From positions 1 to 64,000 of the forward strand of contig JAIMKV010000017.1 of the NCBI GenBank assembly GCA_020692205.1: DNA of 64,000 bases, in the 5' to 3' direction. Both the position numbers and the translations under genes were made by a program. The notes beneath the pieces are model-generated. The model was not told where the DNA came from. It saw nothing but the letters and a program-made list of their open reading frames with translations, and searched no databases. Shown in pieces: positions 23,165 to 55,735 of this stretch (positions are counted from its first letter, which is position 1; each line of letters opens with the position of its first letter). The DNA comes from Myxosarcina sp. GA_180221_E-2-1-MAG-40_15 (GTDB lineage Bacteria > Cyanobacteriota > Cyanobacteriia > Cyanobacteriales > Xenococcaceae).

Positions 23165-23190
23165 CTTAGTCTTGCTTTGCGAAGACTGAG
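23165..23190. terminator. hairpin between map and CRISPR array
   Basis: CTTAGTCTT (23165-23173) and AAGACTGAG (23182-23190) can pair with one wobble around an eight-base loop. It lies downstream of map on the plus strand and downstream of the array on the minus strand, so it could end either transcript. There is no strong U-tract. Confidence 0.35.
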
Positions 23191-23233
23191 CTGAATCGAA
23201 CCGCCGATAGACGTTATTAAATATTGAATAATA

Positions 23234-23488
23234 AATTCCATCCTCGATCGTCCTTCGGGGCGATCGCAACAAAATGGATAACGAGCGAAAAGAGACCATC
23301 GAATTGTTTCAATCCTCGATCGCCCCGAAGGACGATCGCAACTTCGTGCCATAGTCGAGAGATTTGGTACAAAGAAGTTTCAATCCTCGATCGCCCCGAA
23401 GGACGATCGCAACTTTGAGTAACAATTGCCGCTGTGTGACGTGCTTGGATTGTTTCAATCCTCGATCGCCCCGAAGGACGATCGCAAC
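23234..23488 (-). CRISPR. type I-C CRISPR array, four repeats and three spacers
   Basis: Three identical 37-base repeats lie at 23306-23342, 23377-23413 and 23452-23488, plus a degenerate fourth at 23234-23270. On the minus strand the repeat starts GTTGCGATCG, has a palindromic centre (CGATCG arms) and ends GGATTGAAAC, so the array reads on the minus strand, away from cas2. The three spacers are 35, 34 and 38 bases (23271-23305, 23343-23376, 23414-23451). The repeat at 23452 is leader-proximal, and the one at 23234 is the last. In the last repeat the final bases are changed and the ten-base centre is exactly the reverse complement of that in the other three. The transcript should be processed by Cas5c. 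Confidence 0.95.
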
Positions 23489-23665
23489 TGTAGCTATTTT
23501 AACCCTAATCCATACAAGCGTTTCCAATCATTTTTCCGCGAACCCCTTATTCCAACCAACATACAAACCATATCTATAAAATCCAACTAGTGCTTAAAGC
23601 CATATCCCATGGGCAATCGCGAACCTCCCAGGAAATTGCCCCCTGCTATAGGTTCGCGACAAATA
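23489..23665 (-). promoter_or_regulatory. CRISPR leader region
   Basis: This is the 177-base gap between cas2 and the first repeat, the expected place of the leader and of Cas1-Cas2 integration. Read on the minus strand it holds GGTTCGCG three times: TCGCGAACC at 23651-23659 as an inverted copy, GGTTCGCGA at 23617-23625 and GGGGTTCGCG at 23537-23546. The first two form a perfect nine-base inverted repeat. The rest is AT-rich. No experimentally known motif is claimed. Confidence 0.65.
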
Positions 23666-23956
23666 TCACATAATCAAAGGCTTGTCAAAATCAGTATACT
23701 TATCAACCCCAAAAGACTCCACGTACTTTTCTCGCGGTGATGACAACCGATAAAACCGAATACTATCGGTCTGTTTATTAATTATCTTCACCAACCGCGC
23801 TTGAAATTGTTCGCATTGTACCTCACTAACTCGACACTCAAACACCGAATACTGTACGCGCTGTCCATAATTTTCACACATAGTCGCTACTTTACGCAGC
23901 CTACTTCGTCCTTCTTTGGTTTCCGTATTTACATCATAAGTAACTAAAATATCCAT
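23666..23956 (-). CDS. cas2: CRISPR-associated endonuclease Cas2
   Basis: A 96-residue Cas2, the scaffold subunit of the Cas1-Cas2 spacer integrase. It has the ferredoxin-fold start MDILVTYDVNTE with the conserved Asp8, then RLRKVATMCENYGQRVQYSVFEC, the wording typical of type I-C Cas2. It is three bases downstream of cas1 and so cotranscribed. The stop lies next to the leader. Length is normal. Confidence 0.95.
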   Translation of the reverse strand: MDILVTYDVNTETKEGRSRLRKVATMCENYGQRVQYSVFECRVSEVQCEQFQARLVKIINKQTDSIRFYRLSSPREKYVESFGVDKYTDFDKPLIM

Positions 23957-23959
23957 AAC

Positions 23960-24994
23960 TTACCCTCGCAAAATAAAAGGTTGATAACTTAGTACATCTC
24001 CTCGTAAATGACGCGCTAGCAATCGCGCTTGTACATGAGGAATCAGACCCACAGGAACTTTAGAACCGATAATCGAATGAGTTACTTCTTCTTGTTTCCT
24101 TTTTTGATATTCCGTGAGGATTATTTTTCTGCCATCTTCAGAGAGATAAATAGCCCCGCCTGGACGTTTAGTAAAATCCTCTGGTTTAACTTGTCCGCGA
24201 TTGATTAAAGTTAAAACCAAACGGTCTGCTAAAGGCGATCGCAATTCTTCCATCAAATCTAGGGCTAAGGATGGTTTACCTGGACGTAAGGCATGTAAAA
24301 AGCCCATTTGCGGATCGAGTCCAATACTTTCACAAGCGGAAACACACTCATTAGTCAGTAATGTATAAACAAAGGACAATAAGGCATTAATCGGATCGCG
24401 GGGTGGATGTTTGCTTCTTTCTGTCAAGGCAAATGCTTCTCGATTTTGGCGAATCATTGGGGTAAAACTGCCAAAATAAGCTTTAGCTGCATAACCTTCA
24501 ATTCCTCTTAGTTTGTCTAAATCTGAGGCTGTTTCTGTATTTTGAATTGATTCGGCATGAATTTGAACAGTTTTTGCGAGAAATTCCTGATCTTTTGAGC
24601 TTTTTGCTTCTCTTGCTGCCCGCATGACTACTGATCGCGCATTTTGTAACTTTCCTGCTACCATGTATCGGGCGATCGCTAAAGTTTGTTCGGGAGAATC
24701 AATTGCCTGATGTTGCACTCTTCGTAGCAAGACATTTCCTGTGGTCGAACCTGCCATTCGTGCTTTATAGCGTCCGTATTGAGTTAACCAAATCAAATTG
24801 CGTCCATCTTCAGCACATTTGTGAATTAAAAATGGACTCAGCAAGACATTTCCAAAAGCCACAATACTACCGAGATGATGTAGAGGAATTTGAAATTTTA
24901 GTTCTTTTTCCACTTCTAGTTTGAGAGTTTCATGGTCTAAACGTAAATAAGCACCTTGGGTTTGTACGTAGAGAGTGTTCAGAATTGTTTTCAT
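23960..24994 (-). CDS. cas1: CRISPR-associated integrase Cas1 (type I-C)
   Basis: A 344-residue Cas1. The metal-binding residues expected for the family are present: E166 in RGIEGYAAKAYF, H234 in GFLHALRPGKPSLALDLMEE and D246 in the same block. The N-terminal beta domain and C-terminal helical domain are both complete. With Cas2 it inserts new spacers at the leader end of the array. Its ATG overlaps the end of cas4 by four bases. It looks intact, so adaptation should be possible. Confidence 0.96.
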   Translation of the reverse strand: MKTILNTLYVQTQGAYLRLDHETLKLEVEKELKFQIPLHHLGSIVAFGNVLLSPFLIHKCAEDGRNLIWLTQYGRYKARMAGSTTGNVLLRRVQHQAIDSPEQTLAIARYMVAGKLQNARSVVMRAAREAKSSKDQEFLAKTVQIHAESIQNTETASDLDKLRGIEGYAAKAYFGSFTPMIRQNREAFALTERSKHPPRDPINALLSFVYTLLTNECVSACESIGLDPQMGFLHALRPGKPSLALDLMEELRSPLADRLVLTLINRGQVKPEDFTKRPGGAIYLSEDGRKIILTEYQKRKQEEVTHSIIGSKVPVGLIPHVQARLLARHLRGDVLSYQPFILRG

Positions 24995-25617
24995 GGTTCA
25001 TTTATGGCAAAAGGATTATTCTTTTTGGCTGATTCGGTAAAATTATTAACTGCATGAGGCATACAAGTTTCAATCAAAGAGCAATCATCACAGCGTTTAT
25101 CATTAACTGGTGATGGTAATTTAGCTTCAGCTAAAAGCAATCGCGTTTTTTCAATTGTTTGAAGAGTGAGCGATCGCAATTTCCGCTCAAATTCTACTTC
25201 CCGTCGTCGACGAGATTTATGATGAAAAATTGCACCCTTTAATACAGGGCGATTCAACATTTCTTCTAAACACAATGCTTGGGCGCAAAGCTGGATGTTA
25301 TCGGCAGGGCGGACTTTGCGCGAACCAGATTTATATTCAACAGGGTAAGCTGTACCATCGGGCAAAAATTCCACTACATCAGCAATACCTTTGAGTCCCA
25401 ATTCGTGAGAATACAAAGAAAGCGATCGCTCGACTCGAATTCCCGCTTCAATTAGTTCATCACTAGGTTCGTGTACTTTCTCATGTACCCGCATTCCTCG
25501 AAGCGTATAGATGTTCTCCGCCCAAGCTTGTTCAATGTGAATTAGAGCGCACTGTCTAGGACAAAAAGCAAAATGTTGCAATGCACTCAACATTACATAT
25601 TCATCATTGGTAAACAT
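24991..25617 (-). CDS. cas4: CRISPR-associated exonuclease Cas4
   Basis: A 208-residue Cas4, a RecB-like nuclease with an iron-sulfur cluster that trims prespacers and checks the PAM. The four cluster cysteines are visible: C19 (FCPRQC; C23 follows) and C176, C179, C185 (CDDCSLIETC). The nuclease motif includes VEYKSGSRK and a helix with LCAQALCLEEM. The start codon is the ATG at 25617. Overlap with cas1 indicates a tight adaptation module. Between cas4 and cas7c there is a 179-base gap with structured sequence. Confidence 0.94.
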   Translation of the reverse strand: MFTNDEYVMLSALQHFAFCPRQCALIHIEQAWAENIYTLRGMRVHEKVHEPSDELIEAGIRVERSLSLYSHELGLKGIADVVEFLPDGTAYPVEYKSGSRKVRPADNIQLCAQALCLEEMLNRPVLKGAIFHHKSRRRREVEFERKLRSLTLQTIEKTRLLLAEAKLPSPVNDKRCDDCSLIETCMPHAVNNFTESAKKNNPFAINEP

Positions 25618-25737
25618 ATTTTAAGTGCCAAAAATAGGGCGAATCGGCTAAGGATGACAAGCCTTGAGTTGTTAACAATTGGAAATATTTTAAGGATTAT
25701 TCACCAAACCAAGTAAGTCAGAAATATTGGTGTTTAA

Positions 25738-25776
25738 GGAAGCCTTACGAATTGGCGTTTGAGAGGCTTCCTTTTT
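25738..25776 (+). terminator. plus-strand terminator-like hairpin inside the cas operon
   Basis: GGAAGCC (25738-25744) and GGCTTCC (25765-25771) flank a 20-base loop and are followed by TTTTT on the plus strand. This is the sequence of a factor-independent terminator for transcription running against the cas genes. On the minus strand the hairpin is followed by a weaker T-run. A second short pair (CACCAA and TTGGTG) lies just before it. Confidence 0.55.
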
Positions 25777-25796
25777 AGTTTAAGTTAATTAAAAGA

Positions 25797-26933
25797 CTAG
25801 ATTAATTTTGTCAAATGTACCCCTGGTGGTAAATCTTCTTCGTTGACGATCGCCTCGTAATCACCAAATTGACGAGGTAGTGTTACCTCTTTTTTAAGCT
25901 GTACTTGGATTCGTTCAAATAGCTTATGGGCTGGTGCGTTACCGAGTTTGGATTCGTGACTAAATATGTATAATCCTCGTGGTGCCATCATACCCCTGCT
26001 GGCACTGCGGTCAAAATCCCACATTTTGATTAGGGCTTCCCAAAATAGTGATAAATCTTCTTGGGTAATGCCTGTTTTCGCTGCTAGACAGGGAGAATAA
26101 AAACCATGTCCTTGGTATAAACCATAAGGAATCATCGTTTTACGTCCGATCGTCTGTAGTTTTTCTCGATCTTTAGCATCAGTTACAGCAACCCTAGTAA
26201 TGGCTAAATCTTGAGGTTGGACTGGATCGAGCGATCGCGCAAAAGTAAGTTGCATTGCACCACGGACTTGTCCTGCATTCAACCCTGTGCTCATCACTGC
26301 ACCAAACATCCGCACGTCATAGAAATTGGCACACATCCATTTTTGGGCTTTTTCAGCGTTAGCACGATTTTTGTCTGGTTTTCCTGCTTTTTTGACTAAT
26401 TCTTTAATGAATTTACTCAGCTTGTTATTTTTAAACAATTCGGTAACTTCATCACGGGCATAAAATTCTTTGATTTCATCATCAGACATGTCACCGCTAT
26501 ATTCTAAAGTCGCATCTACTTCACCTGAATCTTCATCATTATCAGTAAAAGTAAAAGCATCTGGTAAATAGGGTTTTAGTTCTCGTAATGAAGTTAAAAT
26601 TTGCTCATCTTCAACAATTTTACTAGCAGATTTACCAACAGAATTACCAACAGCAACATGGGCGCGATGGATTTGATCGTTAAGTACGCCGTGATGTTCG
26701 ACAAAAATCTTGAGTCGTTCTTTTTCTGTTTCTGTGGCTTCGTATTCGGCATAGGTAGCAATATAGTTGCGAATTTTACGTTTTAAACAGACATCCGTTA
26801 CCAGTCCATGAGAGGTTTCGGCATCAGTACGGGGCATATTTCCGCCATCTGGATCGCCATTGGGATTGCCATCAATAACATCGAATAATAAAACAAAATC
26901 GTGACGATAGTTAGGATTGAGATGATGAGTCAT
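25797..26933 (-). CDS. cas7: type I-C Cascade backbone protein Cas7c (Csd2)
   Basis: A 378-residue Cas7 of subtype I-C, which polymerises along the crRNA spacer. Features are the start NYRHDFVLLFDVIDGNPNGDPDGGNMPR and TDVCLKRKIRNYI, then the thumb and RNA-binding regions (MFGAVMSTGLNAGQVRGAMQLTFARS) and GRKTMIPYGLYQGHGF. It is longer than the usual 280-300 residue Csd2, with an acidic extension around residues 115-190. The gap to cas8c (60 bases) contains a perfect palindrome. Confidence 0.94.
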   Translation of the reverse strand: MTHHLNPNYRHDFVLLFDVIDGNPNGDPDGGNMPRTDAETSHGLVTDVCLKRKIRNYIATYAEYEATETEKERLKIFVEHHGVLNDQIHRAHVAVGNSVGKSASKIVEDEQILTSLRELKPYLPDAFTFTDNDEDSGEVDATLEYSGDMSDDEIKEFYARDEVTELFKNNKLSKFIKELVKKAGKPDKNRANAEKAQKWMCANFYDVRMFGAVMSTGLNAGQVRGAMQLTFARSLDPVQPQDLAITRVAVTDAKDREKLQTIGRKTMIPYGLYQGHGFYSPCLAAKTGITQEDLSLFWEALIKMWDFDRSASRGMMAPRGLYIFSHESKLGNAPAHKLFERIQVQLKKEVTLPRQFGDYEAIVNEEDLPPGVHLTKLI

Positions 26934-44562: not shown

Positions 44563-44625
44563 ATATGCTATGAGTAAAACAAGGCGATCTCGCTGTATAT
44601 GCCAATTACGTATTGCCAAGTTGGA

Positions 44626-47565: not shown

Positions 47566-47660
47566 TTAAAAGCAAAAATTCCTCGCTTTGACGGCTTTTG
47601 AGTAGCAACCGACACTGAGCCACGAACTTAACATTAGGGAGTAAGGCGATCGCGCTGTAT

Positions 47661-47834
47661 ATGCCAATTAAAGAAAGACAACCATTCGTGATAGGAAAAC
47701 TTAAAATAGAAATTGTTGAATCAGTTGAAACATTATCAAAGATTAATTTATTACAGTGCGAAAATCAACTCCTCCAGCAAGAAAATATTGAGCTTCAGGG
47801 TAAGGTAAAGCTGCTTCGAGTCAAGAATGATTAA
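47661..47834 (+). CDS. small coiled-coil protein (57 aa)
   Basis: An open frame from the ATG at 47661 encoding MPIKERQPFVIGKLKIEIVE and a Leu/Gln-rich helix (residues 20-52) ending KLLRVKND. It could be a short dimerising protein. A preceding 26-base stretch (GGCGATCGCGCTGTATATG and more) also occurs at 44585 after the broken coiled-coil gene, where the reading frame fails after about ten codons. No ribosome site is obvious. Confidence 0.45.
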   Translation: MPIKERQPFVIGKLKIEIVESVETLSKINLLQCENQLLQQENIELQGKVKLLRVKND

Positions 47835-50936: not shown

Positions 50937-52331
50937 ATGCCCACTGGCGAAATAATTGGATTAGGAAGATCGGGAATTGCTGCTGCAAGATTACTCAACC
51001 AAGACGGTTGGCAAGTTAGTTTAGTAGACTCGGCAACAGAATTACAAATAGCGTTGCGATCTAATGGAAAACAACTACAAGCTTCACAACAACAGCTAAA
51101 CCAAGAAGGGGTTCTCGTTAAACTTGATAGCAGTATTTTAGAGGCTGAGACACCAAATCTAATTGTAGTTAGCCCCGGTGTGCCGTGGGATCTCAAGGCA
51201 CTAGAAACAGCTAGACAACAGGGTATTCAGACTATTGGTGAGATTGAATTAGCTTGGCGTTATCTAAATCGGATACCCTGGGTAGGTATTACAGGCACCA
51301 ACGGTAAAACTACGACTACAGCATTAATCGCGGCAATTTTTCAGGCTGCTGGTTTAAATGCTCCTGCCTGTGGCAATATTGGTAATGCTGCTTGTGAATT
51401 GGCTATTAAAAATTTCGCTGCCGTTGGCGATCGCAGTTTTGACTGGATTATTGCGGAATTAAGTAGTTATCAAATTGAATCTTCAGTGGAATTAGCCCCA
51501 AAAATTGGGATCTGGACTACTTTTACTCCAGATCATCTTAATCGGCATCAAACCTTAGAAAACTATTATCAAATCAAAGCTTCTCTTCTGCGACGTTGCC
51601 GGCAAAAAATTATTAATGGCGATGATCGCTACCTCCAACAAACAGGATTAGCATTGGGTACAGATGTTATTTGGACGAGTGTTAAAGGTAAAAATAGCTT
51701 TGGAGATGATCGCCTGGTCGAAGTTTATCTTGAAGATGGTTGGGTTGTCGCTTTTGGCGAACTTATTGCCCCTGTAAATCTCTTTAAAATGCCTGGGCAA
51801 CATAATCTCCAAAATCTTTTGGTAGCCGTAGCAGCAGCCAAATTAGCTGGAATTGAAAAAACAGCGATCGCTCAAGCCATAACCTCTTTCCCTGGAGTAG
51901 AACATCGTCTAGAATACGTCTGCACTCATCAGGGAATCAAATTTATTAATGATAGTAAAGCTACTAATTACGATGCAGCCGAAGTGGGGTTAAACTCCGT
52001 CGAAGCACCCGTAATTTTAATTGCAGGTGGACAAGCCAAAGTAGGGGAGGATCTAGCTTGGATCGATACTATCAAAGCTCAAGCTGCGGCTGTTTTATTA
52101 ATCGGTGAAGCTGCACCAATGTTTGCTCAAAGATTAAGCGATCGCGGGTTAGATAACTATCAAATTGTTGAAACTATGGATAAAGCAGTAGCTCAAAGTT
52201 TACAGTTAGCTCAAAAGTATCAGGCAAAAGTAGTCTTGCTTTCCCCCGCCTGTGCCAGTTTTGATCAATATCTCAGTTTTGAGGCGCGGGGCGATCATTT
52301 TAAACAGCTATGTTTGGCGATTAAGGATTAA
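50937..52331 (+). CDS. murD: UDP-N-acetylmuramoylalanine-D-glutamate ligase MurD
   Basis: A 464-residue MurD, which adds D-Glu to UDP-MurNAc-Ala in the cytoplasm. It has the N-terminal UDP-binding Rossmann part ([18 protein letters not shown]), the ATP loop [12 protein letters not shown] near residue 120, the metal and substrate blocks [14 protein letters not shown] and [17 protein letters not shown], and a normal C-terminus. The last 38 codons plus one base are repeated at 54459-54573 with three mismatches, so this 3' end appears to have served as an integration or recombination site. Confidence 0.97.
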
Positions 52332-52332
52332 C
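52218..52332 (+). repeat. left copy of 115-base murD-tail direct repeat
   Basis: This is the end of murD, from codon 428 to one base past the stop. The same 115 bases, with three differences, occur at 54459-54573. Outside these limits the two sites show no further likeness, so the boundaries are sharp on both sides. Confidence 0.95.
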
Positions 52333-52427
52333 AATTTATAGAACAAGTAGAGCAAAGAGATCGTTTTATGAATCTATCCAACTAATATTTTTTTATAGTT
52401 TTAAGCGGTTTAGAATTACCAAAAGTT

Positions 52428-52976
52428 TCAATGAACAATATGACCAATTTTAGGAACATCTGCATTGCTAGCTTCTTTCTCATTCAAGTGAGTAAATAAG
52501 CCTTTGCTAACTACTAAACGCGCACTATTAGGCAAAGATCCATAAATTAATGCACTTGGAATTGAATTATTAATAATTCCCAAACGTAGTTTTTTAATAT
52601 TTTTAGCTAAACAGATTTGTTTAATTAACTCTGCTGTTTCAGGACTCAAATTGGTTAATTCAGATAAGGAAATCCAGCGCGTTTGATAAAACCATTGCTG
52701 ACTTAAATCTATAAACCAAGGTGAAGTAGAAAAAACAGCTAAATTAAAAATTAGAGTAATACTAGCAAAAATAATCAGATTAATTTCTGGATTTTTGTGA
52801 TTAAAAATAAGTAATGCGGCTAAACCAAAAAGTAGTAGTGTTTTTTTTACCAAGCTTAAAGCAATACTATGAGTCAAAGCTAATTTATGCTTTATTTCCT
52901 CCATTTTTTTGATAATCATTTTGAAATTATCTTCTGGTAGTTTTTTAAAACTACAATTACAAATATTGTTATTCAT
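52428..52976 (-). pseudogene. truncated M48 peptidase (membrane anchor and start of catalytic domain)
   Basis: A 182-residue remnant of an M48/HtpX-type metalloprotease. From the ATG at 52976 it has two hydrophobic helices (about residues 45-85) and then the usual pre-catalytic run LRLGIINNSIPSALIYGSL and LVVSKGLFTHLNEKEASN. Where HELGHIVHWDF should follow, it reads PKIGHIVH and stops, so His-Glu is lost and the remaining 100 or more residues are missing. A TTG at 53030 could extend the start. It is not expected to be an active protease. It sits between the two murD-tail repeats. Confidence 0.75.
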
Positions 52977-53222
52977 AATTTTTTGAAATATTTTGTGTTT
53001 TTCTTGAGATATATAAATTAAGCTATTCAAGTTCTAATACAGTTATATCAACTTATTTTAAATAATAGTGTGATCGTCAGTTTTTATACTTAAATTTTTC
53101 TAAATAATCAAAATTTATAAGACTTTATAGAAGTGGACAAAATTATAAACAGGTGATTTAAATCATACTTTTGCAATACAGAGGTATTTACTATGAACAC
53201 ATAAACTTATCTGAATCAATCA

Positions 53223-54386
53223 ATGAACACACTAATATTAAATCCTTCCACTATTTTAGGATTTGCTGCTACTGTAATAACTTGTACTGGTATGGGTTTA
53301 AAAAATCCCTACGTAGCTTTCACTGGTTTTAACTTAGGAATGTCTGCTGGTATAGTTAATACATCTAATAAAAAATCAAAGGATAAACAAACACAACAAT
53401 TCAATTCTCAAATAAGTTTTTTAACTAATCAAATTAAAGATATTGAAAACCAAACTCAAGAACAACATCAAATCTCTAGCCAATATCAGCAAACTTTACA
53501 AGAACTTAAATCACAACAAAAACAAGCTCTTGAACAAGTAAATAATAATACAACACAGCTAAACTCTCTTGACCCATGTAAACTTAATTTTAAACTTAAT
53601 AATAGAGAACGCCAACTTGACGAACATAACAAAAAATTGAAACGATATCAACACGAATTAAATAGTCAAAAAGCTAATCAAAATAAAATTTTTTCTCAAA
53701 TTCAAAAATTAAACAATGAGATTCAAAGATTAAACAATGAACAGAAAGAGAGTTCTACTATTAAAGCTCAACAGCTAAATGAAATTGAAAAGCAAGTAGA
53801 TAAATTAATTGATAACATTCAACAAAATCTTATTGAATCTAATATACAGTTTCCTGAAGAGTTCTCAAATGCTATCACTGAACCAATATATAATGATCCA
53901 AATACTATAGTTTATATAGATGGTAACAACCTTTATAATTGTTTGGCAAAAATAGATATACAAGTAGACTATCAATCATTGTTAATTGAGTTATTTGAGA
54001 CAATAAATGCTACTCAAATTAAAATATACGACGGTGCTTTTCCTAACCAAATAAATAAATATTCAGAGCTAAGAAGCTTGGGTTATCAAGTATTTACTTT
54101 TCCTATTGTACAGCGTGAAGAAAATGTATATAAGACTGTTGGGGATGATGTTCAAATGGCGATTGATATGGTTAAAGAAGTTAAAACGGGCGATCGCATA
54201 GTTCTTATTACTGGTGATGGAGATTTTTATCCAGCATTAAAAGAGATTAAGCAACGTAATGTTCATATTACTGTAATAGCAGAAAATCAATCTATTAGCC
54301 ATTATTTAAAAGAATTAGCGGATGAATTTATTAGCGTAAATTCTTTTGAATATAAAATTGCTAGACATACTAGAGTTTATACATAA
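53223..54386 (+). CDS. membrane-anchored coiled-coil NYN-domain ribonuclease-like protein
   Basis: A 387-residue protein in three parts. Residues 9-45 hold one or two hydrophobic segments that probably anchor it in the membrane. Residues 52-205 form a Gln/Asn/Lys-rich coiled coil. Residues 225-380 form a NYN domain of the PIN-like fold, with the acidic residues expected for RNA cleavage: D233 in VYIDGNNLYN, D308/D309 and D315 in GDDVQMAID, and D332/D334 in LITGDGDF. Base composition is more AT-rich than the housekeeping genes around it. The gene stands alone between the murD-tail repeats. The NYN part is close in wording to LabA/YacP-type domains. Its role is unknown; RNA turnover or antiviral defence is possible. 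Confidence 0.85.
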   Translation: MNTLILNPSTILGFAATVITCTGMGLKNPYVAFTGFNLGMSAGIVNTSNKKSKDKQTQQFNSQISFLTNQIKDIENQTQEQHQISSQYQQTLQELKSQQKQALEQVNNNTTQLNSLDPCKLNFKLNNRERQLDEHNKKLKRYQHELNSQKANQNKIFSQIQKLNNEIQRLNNEQKESSTIKAQQLNEIEKQVDKLIDNIQQNLIESNIQFPEEFSNAITEPIYNDPNTIVYIDGNNLYNCLAKIDIQVDYQSLLIELFETINATQIKIYDGAFPNQINKYSELRSLGYQVFTFPIVQREENVYKTVGDDVQMAIDMVKEVKTGDRIVLITGDGDFYPALKEIKQRNVHITVIAENQSISHYLKELADEFISVNSFEYKIARHTRVYT

Positions 54387-54458
54387 TTGTTATCTCTTTT
54401 TTGTCACTCTCGGAGAATTTAACGAATTTGCCTTGTTTCAGCTAATGAGAAATTAAAA

Positions 54459-54573
54459 TATCAGGCAAAAGTAGTCTTGCTTTCTCCCGCCTGTGCCAGT
54501 TTTGATCAATATCTCAGTTTTGAGGCGCGAAGCGATCATTTTAAACAGCTATGTTTGGCGATTAAGGATTAAC
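54459..54573 (+). repeat. right copy of 115-base murD-tail direct repeat
   Basis: This copy matches 52218-52332 in 112 of 115 positions: one C-to-T change and one GG-to-AA pair. It preserves the murD stop codon and the base after it. It is not part of any long frame, so it is a displaced gene tail that marks the right edge of the inserted stretch. Confidence 0.95.
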
Positions 54574-54649: not shown

Positions 54650-55135
54650 TTAATTTGTTGTAGTTATTTGAAAGCTATTTTTAATTAGAGCAAATATCTG
54701 TAAAGGGTCTGATTTATATGTTTCATTTAGAAGCTTAAAAGTTTTATCTCTAAGCATTTGTTGATCGATTAAGCTGATTAACTCATCTAAGTCTATCCCT
54801 CCAAAAACTTCCTGAGAGGCTTTAATTAAGGCTATAGGCAAAGATTGTTGAAAACTATCCTCCCAATCATTTTGCTTAATATAGTGAGATTTTTTGCCTA
54901 AATGATTGCGTTTTTGAATTTCTAAAAGACTATTAATAATAGAGTTACGCCAACTTGTAGTAACTCTTTTTTCTACTTGAACTTTGATTAGATGAATCAG
55001 AAGAATGACTAGAAAACTTTGTAAATTGTTAATCTTGTCTTGTCTTCCCATTTCTTCTAATTCTTCAATTATTGCCAAGGATTTTTCCCAGTCATGGCTA
55101 ATAATTGATTGTTTGAGTTCGATTATTTCTTCCAT
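54650..55135 (-). CDS. DUF29-like protein
   Basis: A 161-residue helical protein of the type found in many cyanobacterial DUF29 genes. It has the recurring features IEELEEMGRQDKINNLQSFLVILLIHLIKVQVE, then a Trp-Arg-Asn-Ser block (TTSWRNSIINSLLEIQKR) and ALIKASQE. The function is unknown; DUF29 genes tend to lie in variable regions. It is 76 bases past the right murD-tail repeat. Confidence 0.75.
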   Translation of the reverse strand: MEEIIELKQSIISHDWEKSLAIIEELEEMGRQDKINNLQSFLVILLIHLIKVQVEKRVTTSWRNSIINSLLEIQKRNHLGKKSHYIKQNDWEDSFQQSLPIALIKASQEVFGGIDLDELISLIDQQMLRDKTFKLLNETYKSDPLQIFALIKNSFQITTTN

Positions 55136-55381: not shown

Positions 55382-55735
55382 TTAGAAATCAATCGAATTA
55401 TCGGCAAAAACTTCAACTTCTTCAGTAGAAACTCCGATTACATATTCACTTCCCTTCAAATATTCATAGAGTGTTTCCTGACGGTAATCGATCGTGCCAT
55501 CTGCGTCGTAATCATTTTCAACAACGCCAGTTAGCTGATTACCCTTTTGATTATAGGTATTCGTCTGTGAAGAACGAAAATCAATGATGCCATCCCCATC
55601 GTTATCATTTTCAAAAACACCAGTTAGTAGATTATCCCTTTGATCGTAGGTGTATGTGTCTGAAGAACGAGAATCGATGCTGCCATCTCCATCGTCATCA
55701 GTGTTTGTTGTAATGATTTGAGTGGGAGTTTTCAT
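55382..55735 (-). CDS. aspartate-rich repeat protein
   Basis: A 117-residue acidic protein with three near-copies of a unit of about 28-34 residues: NTDDDGDGSIDSRSSDTYTY, NDNDGDGIIDFRSSQTNTY and NDYDADGTIDYRQETLYEY. The DxDGDG loops look like EF-hand or thrombospondin type 3 calcium sites, and the Tyr-rich second half resembles YD-repeats. It may be a small surface or secreted Ca-binding protein or a piece of a larger one; there is no signal peptide. Confidence 0.65.
   Translation of the reverse strand: MKTPTQIITTNTDDDGDGSIDSRSSDTYTYDQRDNLLTGVFENDNDGDGIIDFRSSQTNTYNQKGNQLTGVVENDYDADGTIDYRQETLYEYLKGSEYVIGVSTEEVEVFADNSIDF

Follow-up and report, generated by a model that had tools for sequence, protein, structure and literature searches.

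Protein genes can take up integrative elements at their 3′ ends, as phage 21 and e14 do in icd. Cargo can also lie in islands of other kinds, among them the minimal mobile elements of Neisseria, which hold cargo without mobility genes between conserved genes and are moved by homologous recombination, and the tycheposons, cyanobacterial cargo islands with gene-derived ends that use tRNA genes and a recombinase of their own. Restriction-modification genes, in turn, are inserted with long, variable (~100 bp) target duplications, as described in passages of PMC3874152 and PMC3031569 that credit Nobusato 2000 and Furuta 2010. Here we examine an island bounded by copies of the murD 3′ end in the first 64,000 nucleotides of contig JAIMKV010000017.1 of the cyanobacterium Myxosarcina sp. 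GA_180221_E-2-1-MAG-40_15, a stretch we call the window. The genome bearing the window is labelled G000 and the other genomes G001 upward. We give about even credence to the island being a non-autonomous cassette that integrated by crossover through a murD tail it carried.

The island behind murD and its empty site

The murD gene is intact in the window (50937 to 52331, plus strand, 464 amino acids), as judged from its open reading frame (ORF) and Mur ligase Pfam matches, and is kept so beside a direct repeat of its own 3′ end. This repeat, D1, has a gene-linked left copy at 52214–52332 and an orphan right copy at 54455–54573, both on the plus strand and identical at 115 of 119 bases, with differences at 52217, 52244, 52289 and 52290. 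The left copy ends 1 base past the murD stop codon and the orphan, found by repeat search, is contiguous with the native flank. The best ungapped match to the right copy elsewhere in the window reaches 52 of 119 bases, so a chance origin is excluded. Between the copies lies a body of 2,122 bp (52333–54454) with a GC content of 27.4%, compared to 41.9% for murD and 39.4% for the window. The original prediction, made from the letters alone, had described a murD tail duplicated at 112 of 115 bases with sharp ends around 2.1 kb of AT-rich DNA. All of this was borne out, with the repeat starting four bases before the predicted 52218 and the copies unrelated beyond both ends.

The empty site is provided by G009, the nearest relative by murD (85.6% amino acid identity). 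The flank right of the second copy aligns there from its own first base, just past the murD stop, at 77% over 209 bp, and the left end of the island has no match behind murD. This alignable flank (~209 bp) stops within the 3′ part of the gene for a DUF29 protein (PF01724), the native right neighbour in the window (54650–55135, minus strand), and no DUF29 ORF was grouped at the site in G009. In G004, the DUF29 gene follows murD directly and the flank aligns at 87% over 554 bp from flank base 68, 11 bases past the murD end. Since the right-flank sequence follows murD directly in G009, the comparison identifies the island as an insertion that left murD intact. An old tandem duplication of murD, which the original prediction had raised as an objection to its own reading, does not agree with the window, since what follows one copy is unrelated to what follows the other.

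No integrase was found among the ORFs of the island body by ORF list or Pfam, as had been predicted, and the rest of the genome was not searched for integrases. A DNA transposon was considered and rejected, as the repeat is 119 bp long rather than a short target duplication and no terminal inverted repeats were found at the island ends, none of the 23 inverted-repeat pairs of at least 16 nt joining both ends.

The slt locus and the proposed crossover

A repeat scan described below recovered the same anatomy behind slt, on contig C2 of G000 (L137:6950-14075), where a 61-bp repeat of the slt tail (90% identity) encloses the Zorya genes ZorA1, ZorB1 and ZorC1 (PADLOC E-values of 9.5e-269, 2.6e-79 and 1e-197, respectively). 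G009 is the empty site here as well. The two copies have in common a core of 20 bases, GAAGTAGGAAAATTATTTAA. Before this core, the gene-linked copy in G000 equals G009 at 41/41 bases and the orphan differs at 6 of the 41. The first half of the orphan has the allele ATATGCTGG, as do G012, G003 and others, in place of the native CTATCTATTGG. After the core, it is the orphan that continues like G009 (90.8% over 425 bp), and the gene-linked copy runs into a new C-terminus with no match to G009. On these alignments we take the opposite mosaics to be what a single reciprocal crossover leaves when a circle bearing the slt tail recombines with the chromosome, as neither a strict target duplication nor a one-sided event would give both mosaics.

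The same Zorya unit is also present in G012, at 114.8-120.1 kb, whereas slt is at 4.47 Mb. There, the left repeat links the right arm of the unit, with 74.7% identity to the G000 right arm over 241 bp, with its left arm, for which the identity to the G000 counterpart is 72.2% over 299 bp. The right repeat continues into the native neighbour of slt, at 83.4% identity to G009 over 332 bp. By its sequence, the left-repeat join is an element-element junction, as expected of a circle or a tandem copy. No slt-tail repeat was found at the Zorya genes of G006, G007 and G004 within the stretches examined.

For murD we infer the same formation route, together with the circular form and the enzyme responsible. 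An incoming, probably circular, molecule would carry a murD tail and the cargo, and a single crossover would join the chromosomal murD 3′ tail to the carried one. The gene would be left complete, with its upstream part native and its last bases from the newcomer. The cargo, a nuclease-like NYN gene and a dead protease fragment, would thereby be delivered behind murD, and the displaced tail would become the orphan before the old neighbour. The genes of the cassette would be dispensable to this process, as host homologous recombination or a recombinase acting in trans would do the work. The murD island is placed in the slt-type class by its anatomy, not by a footprint.

Two other routes could leave similar copies behind. 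A linear donor containing a murD end and cargo could recombine homologously in murD on one side and be joined illegitimately, by chance, inside the recipient murD tail. With donor and recipient flanks that differ, this would explain why the repeats at murD and at two further genes described below, pip and uvrB, go no further than the stop codon; it would also explain why the left boundary varies between cases, and neither a circle nor an integrase is needed. However, a one-sided event predicts a wholly donor gene-linked tail and a wholly native orphan, and the slt copies are oppositely mosaic; we judge it improbable for murD. Under a strict target duplication, the recipient's own 119 bases would have been copied while unrelated DNA was inserted, and no enzyme known to us produces duplications of this kind. 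It would suit this explanation that the murD tails, 97% identical to each other, both have a native look, and that variable duplications of ~100 bp are described for restriction-modification genes in parts of the sources named above. The orphan at slt argues the other way, because its ATATGCTGG first half, in place of CTATCTATTGG, indicates that it was not copied from the present sequence of the recipient. We consider a strict duplication decidedly improbable.

Several observations weigh against the entry of a circular cassette by crossover. At each of the four positions where the murD tails differ, the change towards the orphan is G-to-A or C-to-T, compatible with decay, and because all four are transitions in this direction a crossover at murD is indistinguishable from decay. 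Both tails look native (82.6% and 80.0% identity to G009, with 83.6% for the murD body), meaning that the tail of the newcomer would have to come from a very close relative. The slt pattern has an alternative, though a less simple one, in an old insertion that was precisely lost in G009, and the exact stretches common to the slt copies are at most 20 bases, which is short for RecA. A circular form was not directly observed, and 400 kb of G009 and G002 yielded no further clean example at the 3′ end of a housekeeping gene.

Second murD tails and other gene ends

To survey murD itself, its 37-amino acid tail was searched in 388 genomes of the order, of which 371 gave a match at E 0.001, and in another set of 388 from the class, of which 370 did so at E 0.01. 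Together these amount to 714 distinct genomes, with decayed tails escaping detection at those cut-offs. A second match was found in 8 of the 714, and in three of these (G000, G012 and G450) cargo lies between the tails. The cargo in G012 is a gene for superoxide dismutase, matched by an NCBIfam model at E 1.4e-73 but below the cut-off of that model. Its orphan tail is 67.9% identical, carries a stop and starts near the same murD position as that of the window. The two G012 tails are probably of one lineage, since their common C-terminal end differs from that of the other aligned members of the genus. The repeat in G450, which belongs to another family, is 438 bp long with 90% identity (L111:8179-10483) and covers the murD end and DNA far past the stop; its cargo is a 332-amino acid ORF without a Pfam or PADLOC match. 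No cargo case was counted among the remaining five. G032 has a 274-bp tandem copy of the murD tail plus a palindromic TGTAGGGTGCGTTA repeat (L020:1495-2062), and the second copy in G038 is broken, murD-like and near a contig end. In G342, G485 and G673 the two matches are on separate contigs, the two in G485 having 333 bp in common at 82%.

A fixed left boundary common to G000 and G012 was also considered, and it is weakened by signs that the G012 orphan may extend further upstream. The score of this upstream extension was reached by 0 of 2000 shuffles against G003 and against G008 and by 2 of 2000 against G001, but the similarity depends on a GCGATCGC word, presumably common in such genomes; against G012's own murD, 164 of 2000 shuffles reached the score. 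The left edge in G012 is similar to that of the window and possibly longer, and the boundary in G450 is different. Second tails in 8 of 714 genomes, with cargo in three and with differing boundaries and cargo, led us to reject murD as a dedicated attachment site.

Other sequence collections were searched for the murD tail as well. Phage records gave 26 matches, none above 80% identity and with none named for a cyanobacterium among the 20 listed; plasmid records gave 43, with no cyanobacterium among the 20 listed; and none of nine pattern matches in viral contigs was confirmed. The original prediction had proposed integration into the murD 3′ end, perhaps by a satellite mobilised in trans or by a larger element of which the island is a remnant. 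The part of this claim that stands is an insertion that spares murD, with G009 supplying the empty site. An integrase or a family of satellites specific to murD is not upheld, given the rarity of second tails, the differences among the three cargo-bearing cases and the phage and viral results.

Site-specific integration in general still has to be weighed. A tyrosine-type integrase, encoded elsewhere in the case of a satellite or since lost, could have acted at the murD 3′ end, with the tail of the element restoring the gene. The arrangement has the form of an attachment site located at the 3′ end of a gene, and in G012 a second tail flanks the superoxide dismutase cargo from nearly the same murD position. 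In addition, a 78-bp repeat with 100% identity, tRNA-like by eye, flanks 11 kb in G012, and for this reason integrase-type islands probably exist in the genus. Against such an enzyme at murD, the scanned cassette ORFs include no integrase, second tails are as rare as reported above, the G450 repeat runs 438 bp and past the stop, the G012 orphan may reach further upstream, and different target genes would require different integrases. We regard this explanation as unlikely, though one to be taken seriously.

Repeats at other genes were sought in two scans. The first covered 1,615,823 bases, namely the window, 20 pieces of G000 and 400 kb from each of G012, G003 and G004, and was set to find direct repeats with a length of 50-700 bp and a spacing of 0.25-16 kb. 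It kept 20 two-copy pairs and set aside 24 pairs with more copies. Besides the window, three pairs link the 3′ end of a protein gene to a downstream orphan, namely those at slt, pip and uvrB, with the identities of the latter two genes being our reading of their sequence. The pip repeat in G003 (L156:5769-8223) is 157 bp long with 92% identity, ends at the stop and encloses a beta-lactamase-fold gene; its orphan is decayed. The uvrB repeat in G012 (L093:3222-4082) is 68 bp at 91% (80 bp at 86% in another comparison), with DUF433/DUF5615 cargo. The slt and pip repeats, which end 19 bases and 1 base before the gene end, were called internal by the script and reclassified by eye. A fourth 3′-end pair is the G012 Zorya locus, and a fifth, 636 bp in G012, appears mobile-element-like by eye and was left uncounted. 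The remaining 14 pairs comprise coding-internal repeats, intergenic repeats, two 5′-end pairs and the tRNA-like 78-bp pair. Separately, a second uvrB tail was noticed by eye in G002, 329 bases from the first (L210:3471-3845).

The second scan covered 838,623 bases, of which the 400 kb of G009 and G002 were chosen for no feature, and gave 14 pairs including the known G012 and G450 murD pairs, with no additional clean case at the 3′ end of a housekeeping gene anywhere in the stretch covered. Three pairs flagged at small-ORF 3′ ends, two of them in G006 and the other in G009, were left uncounted. It also showed repeats in G009 around genes we presume to be toxin-antitoxin-like, one of them at a 5′ end; a 114-bp repeat (L219:5928-7051) includes the 5′ end of a 910-amino acid ORF and encloses a gene pair we take to be PrlF/YhaV-like.

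Outside the window, there are three clean cases in ~1.95 Mb, or one per 0.65 Mb. Carried to 714 genomes with an assumed ~5,000 genes each, this rate predicts ~1 murD case compared to the three seen, which is compatible with a mild preference for murD or with none. The length of the direct repeat is variable, at 119 bp in the window and 61 to 438 bp elsewhere. Because slt, uvrB and pip have this anatomy too within the genus, a general insertion route fits better than one murD-specific element. A broader proposal, which we make tentatively and hold as a possibility, is that the genus carries integrase-free circular cassettes with a housekeeping-gene 3′ tail as their only recombination site. Such cassettes would enter at murD, slt, uvrB, pip and other genes by one crossover, leaving the gene unharmed through the replacement tail, and defence-type genes (Zorya, toxin-antitoxin-like pairs, NYN nucleases) could spread without a mobility gene of their own. 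How defence and toxin-antitoxin genes move without a nearby transposase or integrase has yet to be explained. Should the slt footprint prove general, the long repeats called 'target duplications' would not be duplications; they would be the pair of products left when a crossover passes through a gene tail brought in with the cargo, and mosaic tails behind housekeeping genes would flag recently moved cargo and its donor.

Cargo genes and comparison with known systems

The NYN-domain nuclease-like protein (53223–54386, plus strand, 387 amino acids) is the sole intact ORF of the island body with a family match (PF01936, E 2.8e-20), and as predicted it is the only intact gene. A coiled-coil-like middle is followed by the NYN domain at residues 228-372, and the protein matches the PADLOC model PDLC01154, 'LabA-like protein, NYN family nuclease', at E 4.5e-50. 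One relative of solved structure, 2qip, was found by sequence (E 3.2e-10). Residues D233, D308, D309, D332 and D334, which we assume to be catalytic, are invariant in an alignment of three sequences. The closest relative, 44% identical, is in G014 of another genus near cas1, cas2 and a repeat array, and a G022 relative is near cas1. Around the relatives in G014, in G026 and at two places in G022, the gene is not enclosed by any pair of direct repeats. A scan of the genome collection using the NYN alignment confirmed one relative; phage records gave no match at E 1e-5 and plasmid records five, the best being a Nostoc plasmid (33% over 69% of the query).

The other ORF (52428–53030, minus strand, 200 amino acids) has no Pfam match and corresponds to the N-terminal third of an M48-type protein. 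It is 44-45% identical to longer relatives in G016, G017, G018 and G026, the longest of which have 575-597 amino acids, and is cut after residue ~197. The fragment reads PKIGH where its relatives have HELGH and has a stop in place of their W, and NCBIfam HtpX-type models match it at E 5.9e-6 and weaker, all below the model cut-offs. We consider it a truncated and decayed M48/HtpX-type protease. Its relatives are in four other genomes among the 27 searched in the family, all outside the genus, and a search of the 12 further genomes available for the genus found none. The island cargo is low in GC and lacks close relatives in the genus, and we read it as foreign DNA.

Elsewhere in the window, a CRISPR-like array of ~4 repeats is present at 23180-26933 near minus-strand ORFs that we take to be cas1-like (23960-24994), cas4-like and cas7-like. 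A 28-nt direct repeat, 96% identical, is found at 44581-44608 and 47643-47670, 3.06 kb apart. Two 93-nt tandem repeats, 76% identical, occupy 55481-55666 inside a small minus-strand ORF (55382-55735).

How the murD island compares with the systems introduced at the outset can now be set out. Like the integrative elements in protein-gene 3′ ends, it carries a replacement tail, restores the host gene and has a direct repeat at the far end; unlike them, it has no integrase ORF, its boundaries vary among cases and the anatomy is found at several unrelated target genes. With the minimal mobile elements of Neisseria it has in common cargo without mobility genes, but those elements are not known to have a duplicated gene tail. 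It is similar to the tycheposons in being a cargo-bearing cyanobacterial island with gene-derived ends and differs from these users of tRNA genes and their own recombinase, as no tRNA gene was found in the window.

The long target duplications of restriction-modification genes resemble the murD island by analogy, as the cargo lies between long repeats of ~100 bp that are variable among cases. Since the island holds an NYN gene and an M48 fragment only, with no restriction-modification cargo, it is not classed as a restriction-modification unit. Compared with the portions of those papers that describe such insertions, the cargo here consists of NYN, Zorya, DUF433/DUF5615 or other genes, the murD, pip and uvrB repeats end at the stop codon of the host gene, and the slt repeats are mosaic and not simple copies of the target. 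The use of a host-gene tail, the kind of cargo and the mosaic at slt are what sets the present cases apart from those insertions.

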